NCBI GenBank assembly: GCA_958295865.1 | Contig: CATQHF010000001.1 | Location: 248,001 to 312,000, forward strand | DNA from: an uncultured Dehalococcoidia bacterium | GTDB taxonomy: Bacteria; Chloroflexota; Dehalococcoidia; Lucifugimonadales; JADFKI01 | DNA: 64,000 nucleotides | Direction: 5' to 3' | Shown here: in pieces, positions 55,093 to 57,955 of the stretch | Position numbering within the stretch: position 1 is the stretch's first letter | How the letters are laid out: every line of letters starts with the position of its first letter | The notes under the pieces: generated by a model | The model's input: only the letters and a program-made list of their open reading frames with translations | The model's database searches: none | What the model was told of the DNA's origin: nothing | Program-made: the position numbers and the translations under genes

Positions 55093-55121
55093 TTGTAGCA
55101 TAGAAGTGTATGACATATAAT
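55093..55121 (+). promoter_or_regulatory. Putative promoter of the Rad50-like operon
   Basis: TTGTAG-17 bp-TATAAT upstream of 55160. Confidence 0.45.
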
Positions 55122-55159
55122 GTGCGAGGTCAGAACATTTTCTATATCAAGGAATACTT

Positions 55160-55357
55160 ATGAATGAATCAAAATCGCCACAATTTACTGAACTGGTTGA
55201 AAAGCAACTAGATGCGGAAGTTCGAGATCTATGGATCCCAATGGCACAAGAGTTTGACAGGGATGGACCAGAGGCTGCCAAAGTGTATTTGGACAGTGAA
55301 GGACAACGACTCCAAGAACGGGTAAAAGGTCTGCTCGATCAGATTGAAGGGAGTTGA
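55160..55357 (+). CDS. Small acidic hypothetical protein, first gene of the Rad50-like operon
   Basis: MNESKSPQFTELVEKQLDAEVRDLWIPMAQEFDRDGPEAAKVYLDSEGQRLQERVKGLLDQIEGS; ends 5 nt before the next ATG. Confidence 0.6.
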   Translation: MNESKSPQFTELVEKQLDAEVRDLWIPMAQEFDRDGPEAAKVYLDSEGQRLQERVKGLLDQIEGS

Positions 55358-55362
55358 AGTCA

Positions 55363-57447
55363 ATGGCAAGCGGATTCCGTGTGCAGACTGTTGCAATCGA
55401 AGGCTTCAAAGGGTTCACAATACAAAAGAAACTCAATCTCAAGGATCGGCACTTATTCCTATTAGGCCAAAACGGCAATGGGAAATCCAGCATCATAGAG
55501 GCTGTCCGCTGGGGATTATTCGGCTCTGCCGGGAGACCGAACGAGGTAGTGTTGAATCAGAACTACGCAGGTGACTGCCTCGTACTAATCACACTCATGC
55601 GCGAAGGCAAGCATTGGAATCTGCGTCGTAGATTGAATCGAGGCACGACTGGGGGAACTGATGCTGAGCTTACTGACGAGTATGGAGATGAGCACTCGAT
55701 TAGAGAAGTTATGCCCCAACTGGATTCGGTGAACGCAGGTGAGGGAATGCATATCATTTTCGCGCCACAATCTTCTCCGCTCCGTCGCCAACCAGAAGAC
55801 CTTACTCCATTTGAGAGAACGGTCTTCAATCATCTAGGTCTTACACACCCCCGAGCATTGCTGAGCCATATAGATGAATTCTTAGAAAGCCAACAGATTG
55901 ATGAGGATAATCTAGGCGGTGAACTCACTAAAGCCCGCGCTGAAATTGATACACAGATTTCAGAAGTTAGGCGTATAGTGGGGAATATAGTTAGCTCACC
56001 CCCATGGGGCGATGGTCGTGCGCCGTCGGTCACCGAGTCCCAAAACAAGGCACGCGACTTGATTGAAGAAATTACCGGCAGTCCGCCCGATCAATCTTTG
56101 CATGGCGTATCGTTGTACGCCTTAATCGATAGCGGGCAAACCGCTCTGGTAGATAAGCGAACACAAGACCAAAGTGGCCTTGAGCAAGAGGCTAATGAGA
56201 TTGCTGGACGCCGGAGGCGTGTGGAGAATTTGCGCGATATTCGAAATTCGCTCAACATTCATCATTCTACTACACAAACCAGACAATCCCAACTTGATAC
56301 TGCGCTAAGTGGCGCAACACTCGATGAAATCAAGGAAAGCGTGAATGTAGCAAGAAGAGAAGCAGATGCCGAAGCGTTGAAACTCAAGATAATGGAAGAT
56401 ACACTTCGTCTGCTCAATCTCGACCAAACTGAATCTGTATCCTGTCCCATTTGCGAATCGCAGCACAACCGCCAGGATCTTGAAGCGGCTCTTCAAAATG
56501 TTGATCAGCCGCAAAGTGATGGTGCTAGTTCAAGATTGACTGCCCTTGAATCTCAACTCCAAAAATCTGAAGGACTAGAACGCCTTCTCCAGATAGAAAA
56601 GAGGGAGCTCAGCTCATTACGCCAGAGAGCAGACCAATCCAATGCACTTCTTGATGCAAGAGATAGGGAGTTTCTGGAGCGGACAGATGATATTGACGTG
56701 CTCATTGAGGGACTTTTGGAGCAAGAAGCCTCAATTAGAGAACGGATCGACGACCAAGAAGGCTGGTTTGATACAAAAAGAGGACAACTAGGCAAACTTA
56801 GAGACGAGGATAGATTCCATCAGACCCGGAACAATTTGAGAGATCTCGAGGCGCGTAAAAACCGATTTAACGAAGTCCAAGCGGCTTACGATGACTTTGT
56901 TTCATTCGGTGAATCTGTGCGGAAAATAAAACAAACGGCCAGCGATTGCCTGACCGAGCGTCTTACCGAGGAAATCCCTCTAGTATCGGAGAATCTCTCA
57001 GAGGTTTTCGCTGCGTTGACTCGCCACCCCTGGTACGATCGTTTGCTAATCTCAGAAAACACTCTGCCAAAGCTTGAGTTGCGGGTTGCGAGTAGCCAAG
57101 ATCCTTTTAGCCGTGAGAATCCTACCGGAGTATTAAACGGACAAGCCGAAAGTGCGTTGGATCTTGTGCCGTATTTTGCGTTCAGCCAGTCGGATAACAC
57201 TCCTACTGAAGTATATCTAGTTATGTTGGATGACCCTACTAGGGCATTCGACGAAGAGCACACCGAGATTTTGGTTGAACGTCTGGCTGAACTTGGACAG
57301 CACGTGCAACTCATAGTCGCTTCTCAGGAGACGGAGCGATTTCAGGCTCTGTTGCCGAAAAAATTTGAGCCGGGCAGTTATGTCTTTATCGAACCCACTG
57401 GCTGGTCGCATGATAACGGGCCGGAACTGAAGATTGAGTACAAATAG
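55363..57447 (+). CDS. Rad50/SMC-like AAA ATPase with CxxC zinc hook
   Basis: Walker A LLGQNGNGKSSIIEAV; central coiled coils with SCPICES; LVMLDDPTRAFDEEHTEILVERLAELGQHVQLIVAS Walker B/D-loop. Confidence 0.88.
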   Translation: MASGFRVQTVAIEGFKGFTIQKKLNLKDRHLFLLGQNGNGKSSIIEAVRWGLFGSAGRPNEVVLNQNYAGDCLVLITLMREGKHWNLRRRLNRGTTGGTDAELTDEYGDEHSIREVMPQLDSVNAGEGMHIIFAPQSSPLRRQPEDLTPFERTVFNHLGLTHPRALLSHIDEFLESQQIDEDNLGGELTKARAEIDTQISEVRRIVGNIVSSPPWGDGRAPSVTESQNKARDLIEEITGSPPDQSLHGVSLYALIDSGQTALVDKRTQDQSGLEQEANEIAGRRRRVENLRDIRNSLNIHHSTTQTRQSQLDTALSGATLDEIKESVNVARREADAEALKLKIMEDTLRLLNLDQTESVSCPICESQHNRQDLEAALQNVDQPQSDGASSRLTALESQLQKSEGLERLLQIEKRELSSLRQRADQSNALLDARDREFLERTDDIDVLIEGLLEQEASIRERIDDQEGWFDTKRGQLGKLRDEDRFHQTRNNLRDLEARKNRFNEVQAAYDDFVSFGESVRKIKQTASDCLTERLTEEIPLVSENLSEVFAALTRHPWYDRLLISENTLPKLELRVASSQDPFSRENPTGVLNGQAESALDLVPYFAFSQSDNTPTEVYLVMLDDPTRAFDEEHTEILVERLAELGQHVQLIVASQETERFQALLPKKFEPGSYVFIEPTGWSHDNGPELKIEYK

Positions 57448-57955
57448 CTGGTCAATACTCGATGCCGGCGGGTGCATTGAGCGTATGCGCTTGAAAGCCG
57501 ATTTCGGCTACAAAGTTCAGGCAATTGCCGCGCATGTGCTATTGCGCCTTGGCTATCAAATAGAAGCAGTTAATCAATCAGGACATCCAGACATCGTAGC
57601 TGTTAGGCACGGCATGGAGTTTCGTTTCGAGGTAGAAGCGGAGGTAGGTAGTCCGCGTCCTCGTAAGTTGGCAGATGCCGATTTTGCTTCATTATTGGAA
57701 GTGCCGAACGAGTTTGGTTACTACGCGCTTGCAATCAGTTTCCCAACGCCCTATTGGGTGTTGGTGAGCGCCTCAAAACTTTATGGCAGAAGGCGTCCTA
57801 GTACCAACATTCTACTGGAAGCCCTCAGCGACAAGGAGTATTCAGATGAATGGACATCTGAGTATTTGCGTTTGCTTAATGTTTCCTGTCGTCAAATCGC
57901 ACGCGCATCGTTCAACCAGTTGAGCGAATTAGCGTTGCAAGGTCGCGGGTTATGA
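57434..57955 (+). CDS. Restriction-endonuclease-fold-like protein, last gene of the Rad50-like operon
   Basis: TTG start overlapping the ATPase end (ATG alternative at 57485); YQIEAVNQSGHPDIVAVRHGMEFRFEVEAE resembles PD-(D/E)xK core. Confidence 0.55.
   Translation: MSTNSWSILDAGGCIERMRLKADFGYKVQAIAAHVLLRLGYQIEAVNQSGHPDIVAVRHGMEFRFEVEAEVGSPRPRKLADADFASLLEVPNEFGYYALAISFPTPYWVLVSASKLYGRRRPSTNILLEALSDKEYSDEWTSEYLRLLNVSCRQIARASFNQLSELALQGRGL

Follow-up and report, generated by a model that had tools for sequence, protein, structure and literature searches.

Here we report that three adjacent genes, encoding a small helical protein (p1), a Rad50-like coiled-coil ATPase (p2) and a putative nuclease (p3), form a conserved unit that is transferred as a unit between bacteria. 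We consider it probable that they constitute a horizontally exchanged anti-phage or anti-plasmid module in which the ATPase would license the nuclease. The genes are located in the window, by which we mean the whole 64,000-nucleotide stretch of DNA analysed (C1:248001-312000), and the module is present in a single copy in the corresponding genome (3.4 Mb). The context of the genes gives good support to a putative defence role; complex formation, DNA sensing, DNA cleavage and a phage or plasmid target are what we infer beyond that role.

Organisation of the three genes

The three genes lie on the forward strand. The first (p1, 55160-55357) encodes a 65-amino-acid all-helical protein, a putative adaptor or regulator, the second (p2, 55363-57447) a Rad50/SMC-like coiled-coil ABC ATPase of 694 amino acids (697 if translation starts at the alternative TTG at 55354), and the third (p3, 57434-57955) a 173-amino-acid putative nuclease with a predicted PD-(D/E)xK-type fold and a D...ExE site. 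The end of p1 and the ATG of p2 are 5 bp apart and p2 and p3 overlap by 14 bp, which reproduces the positions and the tight or overlapping spacing reported in a preliminary description of this DNA. Comparison of the relatives of the module yielded dN/dS values between 0.13 and 0.65 with an excess of changes at third positions, pointing to selection on the protein sequence. Because of these values, and because homologues share the same gene order elsewhere, the three open reading frames are real genes and not the product of chance. The TATAAT-type promoter proposed in the same description did not hold, however, since the hexamer at 55116-55121 lacks an acceptable -35 element at a distance of 16-18 bp. 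A promoter scan upstream of p1 likewise yielded no site at 55116-55121 and no excess over shuffled sequences, and a sigma-70 promoter ahead of p1 was therefore rejected.

Conservation and horizontal transfer of the module

The tightly packed order p1-p2-p3 was found in eight other genomes belonging to at least four or five phyla. A search with p3 through 400 genomes of the phylum identified two full relatives (G107 and G408), in both of which p1 and p2 directly precede p3. The p2 alignment was scanned against 84,980 species genomes, using two peptide patterns only and thus saying nothing on absence elsewhere, and seven full-length relatives were recovered, all of them accompanied by p1 and p3 in the same order. 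The carriers are a member of Latescibacteria (L014), one of Binatia (L015), one of Caldilineaceae (L016), another member of Chloroflexi (L017), a bin labelled Desulfurellaceae (L018), a gammaproteobacterium (L019) and L020, which is identical to G408. L015 and L018 have flanking genes in common, so that they may be relatives and the label of L018 may be wrong, and for this reason we give the number of phyla as four or five. Identities to the window proteins ranged between 45 and 60% for p1, 48 and 60% for p2, whose relatives are full length, and 54 and 66% for p3.

The trees of p2 and p3 presented one topology, with which the p1 tree concurred at its supported nodes, and in the p2 and p3 trees the window proteins clustered with those of Latescibacteria, Binatia and Gammaproteobacteria and not with those of the other Chloroflexota. 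This agreement between p2 and p3, in conflict with the phylogeny of the hosts, indicates that the unit moves horizontally. The same conclusion follows from G628 (the genome of L017), which belongs to the same taxonomic order as the window's genome and yet has a p2 less similar to the window protein (54% identity) than the latescibacterial p2 is (60%).

Within this order the distribution of the module is patchy, with traces in 5 of 250 genomes and intact genes only in the window's genome and in G628. The latter genome also contains, at C200, a second, divergent and complete module (L071:3642-6524) with overlapping genes in the same order, whose products are 33% (p1-like), about 30% (p2-like) and 39% (p3-like) identical to those of the window; its p3 retains ExE (FEVEAP), and its p2 retains the CPIC hook, the LNGQ signature and LDDP. 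The conserved three-gene order that had been put forward as a way of assessing the module is accordingly found in nine loci and again in L071. Degraded copies were also observed. G785 holds a remnant of the divergent version, consisting of the p2 C-terminus and, after it, the first part of p3; an open reading frame that we recognised by eye as an IS3-type transposase lies upstream of this remnant. G082 and G093 conserve only the C-terminal third of p3, without p2 (L012:1391-1561 and L013:18373-18543), and G509 a broken copy of p3 (L072). Beside this broken copy there are three successive recombinase-like open reading frames (L072:64-3607; tyrosine-recombinase-like by eye), a possible vehicle. 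Searches of the phage, plasmid and viral collections found no copy of the module; four viral matches were discarded as Walker A look-alikes, and a match in G315 (L007) was due to chance within an unrelated SNF2-type helicase open reading frame.

The genomic site exchanges defence cargo

In the sister genomes, most of which are draft metagenome-assembled genomes, the genes that border the module (53999-55054 and 58306-58977) lie next to each other. The site is empty in G004 and G005, where the flanks are 59 bp and 118 bp apart, respectively. In the comparison with G004 the left flank runs to 55072 and the right flank starts at 58313, while the segment replaced relative to G002 spans approximately 55055-58037; from both comparisons we place the cargo segment of this chromosomal exchange site at 55073-58037. 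The same site is occupied in G002 by an N6/N4 DNA methylase (6e-39) and an SfiI-type restriction enzyme (3e-53), in G001 by a GmrSD-type restriction protein (2.7e-23) and in G006 by a transporter-type gene. As sister genomes are either empty here or carry the SfiI-type restriction-modification pair or GmrSD, the site swaps defence cargo, and this swapping is the strongest indirect evidence for the function of the module. As regards the association with defence islands raised in the preliminary description, the module alternates with restriction systems in sister genomes. There is no recombinase within the exchanged segment.

In other carriers, restriction or toxin-antitoxin genes lie within a few kilobases of the module: L017 has GmrSD together with a C5 methylase, L016 an N6 methylase, and L019 RES/Xre and PIN-type genes. 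A DUF4238 gene is located directly 3' of p3 in L015 (10590-11552) and L018 (10584-11555), and it is a possible fourth component there.

Several other features were observed in the window. About 7 kb upstream of the module there is an McrBC-type pair, formed by an AAA_5 ATPase (45054-46835) and a McrC-family protein (46838-48052), likely a type IV restriction locus. A gene of 67 amino acids to the right of the module (58048-58251) is also present at the G002 site and missing in G004, and a PIN-domain protein whose gene is preceded by a small one (59020-59679, minus strand) likely forms with it a toxin-antitoxin pair. A short dispersed repeat (roughly 40-150 bp) at about 53436-53580 has many copies in this and the sister genomes, and a protein is encoded in three tandem near-identical copies at 40917-43333 (MATTRTITNAWVTRTLPDIFYEEPEIAEDAV...).

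A Rad50-like ATPase that appears to form its own clade

The p2 protein presents Rad50/SMC-like features, including split ABC heads, a coiled coil, a CPxC hook, a signature and a Walker B motif. Examination of the translation recovered the three motifs previously described, namely the Walker A GQNGNGKSS (approximately 55465-55491, residues 35-43), the CPIC zinc hook (56443-56454, residues 361-364) and the Walker B/D-loop VMLDDPTRAFD (57223-57255, residues 620-631 approximately), together with an ABC signature region, LNGQAESAL (57133-57159, residues 591-599), all on the forward strand. Members of the family retain the Walker A motif with minor variations, and ten of ten members share C361, P362 and C364 of the hook, L591-N592-G593-Q594 of the signature, and D623-D624-P625 and D630 of the Walker B/D-loop. 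In Pfam the protein matched SMC_N (3e-14) and AAA_23 (3e-8), and its nearest solved chains are Rad50 ATPases.

In the defence library (PADLOC v2.0.0 of 2023) the best match of all nine p2 proteins was LmuB (PDLC03859; 80 bits for the window protein, best 2e-29), and the isolated N-terminal head of p2 gave the same best match. Genuine LmuBs of the same phylum nevertheless scored between 203 and 486 bits on the same model. In the reverse test, a profile of the p2 family gave LmuBs 8 bits at most, DndD-like proteins up to about 20 bits, and 17 bits to the SbcC-type protein that the window's genome encodes separately. The profile-profile alignment of p2 and LmuB was restricted to about 94 columns around Walker A. 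Membership of LmuB deduced from the 80-bit match alone was rejected on the basis of the reverse profile test and the control loci described below. Because of the low LmuB score in comparison with the controls, the reverse profile and the alignment limited to Walker A, p2 appears from its sequence to form its own clade among Rad50-like ATPases, and LmuB is its closest named family by no more than a weak resemblance.

The putative nuclease and the small protein

The preliminary description had recognised in the third protein a PD-(D/E)xK-like core with Glu in the place of Lys. The sequence on which it relied, GHPDIVAVRHGMEFRFEVEAE, is located within p3, where D53, E66, E68 and R77 are invariant in the ten members, and the D...ExE arrangement, with Glu instead of Lys at the third catalytic position, is found in all ten and in both subfamilies. 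What did not stand was the treatment of this Glu as an atypical caveat, since ExE is invariant and occurs naturally in BamHI. The active site of BamHI comprises D94, E111 and E113. Cleavage is reduced in the E113K mutant of this enzyme (PMC8845596), so that ExE is compatible with catalysis. By analogy, p3 is probably catalytic rather than dead, and we do not favour reading the missing Lys as the mark of a dead nuclease, as ExE remains invariant even at 37-39% identity.

Structure prediction with AF2 produced for p3 one good model out of five (pLDDT 68), showing a helix, three strands, a helix, further strands and a helical C-terminus; the order of elements in this moderate model agrees with an alpha-beta-beta-beta-alpha-beta core. 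The informative matches of a Foldseek search against the PDB were PD-(D/E)xK enzymes at E values of 0.07-1, none of them significant, and included the SPARDA nuclease, MspJI, Hjc, RecU, I-Ssp6803I and LmuA, alongside unrelated weak entries. A structural search of the viral library gave the same weak picture of the PD-(D/E)xK type. In Pfam p3 matched neither a phosphoesterase (Mre11-type) nor an HNH domain, and Hjc was rejected for falling below the cut-off.

The small protein p1 is encoded ahead of p2 in each of the nine close loci and in L071. Its AF2 model (pLDDT 90) consists of three helices, the last one being long. Searches of Pfam, PADLOC, NCBIfam, PHROGs and the PDB gave no match for p1, the Pfam family RecC_C being discarded as below the cut-off.

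Comparison with named systems

No named system in the libraries searched covers all three proteins, and the PADLOC run did not assign them all to one system. Together with the conserved gene order and the site exchanged with restriction systems, this agrees with the earlier view of a compact SMC-plus-nuclease-like system without an obvious named type. The closest comparison is with Lamassu (LmuA/LmuB/LmuC; ABC-3C; DdmABC), which like the module combines in a tight operon an ATPase of about 650-690 amino acids with a CPxC hook, a small protein and an effector of restriction-endonuclease fold, this fold being a prediction in the case of p3. Typically, Lamassu systems have a small LmuC, an LmuA that carries both effector and docking domains, and an LmuB of about 690 amino acids with a CPxC hook (PMC10586767). 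As controls we used four loci from the same phylum in each of which PADLOC names LmuA, LmuC and LmuB. These have the order LmuA-LmuC-LmuB and, in three of the four LmuBs, a DQP Walker B, whereas all copies of the module have the order small protein-ATPase-nuclease, an LDDP Walker B (10/10) and, encoded last in the operon, a single putative effector of 173 amino acids. LmuC is absent in some Lamassu systems, and the Glu-to-Gln change in Walker B is usual but not universal. While the control LmuCs and LmuAs were recognised, p1 had no PADLOC or Pfam match and an hhalign probability of 0.1% against LmuC, and p3 had no PADLOC match and a probability of 0.3% against LmuA. The module could act like Lamassu without being classified as Lamassu, its p1 and p3 not being recognisable as LmuC and LmuA and its p2 scoring weakly as LmuB.

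Rad50-Mre11/SbcCD also pairs a coiled-coil ABC ATPase bearing a zinc hook with a nuclease, but the putative nuclease of the module is PD-(D/E)xK-like and not a calcineurin-like phosphoesterase, and the module has an extra small subunit and a patchy, mobile distribution. DndD/PbeC of the phosphorothioate systems have coiled-coil ATPase heads of similar size; p2 did not match TIGR03185 (DndD) at E values up to 1, and no dnd or pbe partner genes were seen by eye among the neighbouring open reading frames. Septu, Gabija, PARIS and Retron-Ec78 likewise combine an SMC/ABC- or OLD-type ATPase with another effector, but p2 matches them only in the Walker A region (residues ~6-52 in the case of PtuA of Septu) and p3 matches none of their partners, among them the HNH nuclease PtuB of Septu. 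BamHI-type PD-(D/E)xK nucleases share with p3 the replacement of ExK by D...ExE, although p3 has no sequence relation to BamHI, and no sequence-specificity domain or partner methylase was seen.

Proposed mechanism and alternative explanations

ATPase-licensed DNA cleavage is the most likely mechanism for the module. Across life, SMC/Rad50-like ATPases serve to distinguish the cell's own DNA from DNA that is foreign or broken. We propose that p2 would form dimers by means of the CPxC hook and the heads in their ATP-bound state, and would survey DNA for structures made by invaders, such as ends, forks or hairpins, as is thought for Rad50 and LmuB. Its engagement would release p3, the putative PD-(D/E)xE nuclease, or position it to cut DNA, which may belong to the invader or, if the response is abortive, to the host itself, and p1 may be a small helical subunit linking or restraining p2 and p3.

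An alternative is that the module is a divergent Lamassu/ABC-3C system acting by abortive infection, with p2 being LmuB, p1 a reduced LmuC, p3 a reduced LmuA and the gene order rearranged. The parts list matches this reading (a small protein, an SMC-like protein and a restriction-endonuclease-fold effector), LmuB is the top PADLOC model for nine of nine p2 proteins and for the isolated head, and p2 resembles LmuB in its size and CPxC hook (PMC10586767). We judge it unlikely because the score of p2 falls below the 203-486 bits of real LmuBs of the phylum, the reverse profile places LmuB under DndD-like proteins and SbcC, the gene order and the DDP instead of DQP in Walker B differ, and p1 and p3 are not LmuC and LmuA in a comparison where the control loci do match.

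That the genes encode a housekeeping or accessory DNA-repair complex, as a second SbcCD/Mre11-Rad50-like machine, would accord with Rad50 being closest to p2 by sequence among solved structures and with the pairing of Rad50 complexes with nucleases. Such a complex is highly improbable given the very patchy distribution and horizontal movement of the genes, the one site at which they swap with restriction systems, the SbcC-type protein already present in the genome and a p3 without an Mre11-type domain. The tight coupling of mobile, patchily distributed genes and the degraded copies in G082, G093, G509 and G785 would also suit an addiction or mobile-element maintenance module, with a toxin p3 restrained by p1/p2 and persisting selfishly. 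To this explanation we grant only a minimal chance, as the exchanged segment has no recombinase, the site otherwise hosts restriction systems and a 690-amino-acid ATPase would be unusual in a toxin-antitoxin pair.

Coming back to the three genes as an anti-phage or anti-plasmid module, we see an even chance that they represent a distinct type of defence system and not a Lamassu variant. This type would be characterised by its own clade of Rad50-like ATPases, a unique 65-amino-acid helical subunit, a PD-(D/E)xE nuclease, at least two subfamilies, horizontal spread across phyla within sponge microbiomes and regulated DNA cleavage.

Ecology and significance

A sponge origin was traced for L015, L016, L018 and L020, and the look-up gave no confirmation for L014, L017 and L019. 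The bins L016 and L018 were obtained from the sponge Aplysina aerophoba (accessions MPML and MPMI; PMC5649159), and L015 and L020 bear the jk18x naming of metagenome-assembled genomes of Ircinia sponges (PMC9531527). Both studies report an enrichment of defence genes in sponge symbionts (PMC5649159, PMC9531527). In this small three-part version, in which both the putative effector and the third subunit are tiny, the way in which engagement of the ATPase would switch on a nuclease may be dissected with few components. The module is a candidate system that is absent from the defence library searched and present across phyla, whose carriers in several cases share sponge hosts.
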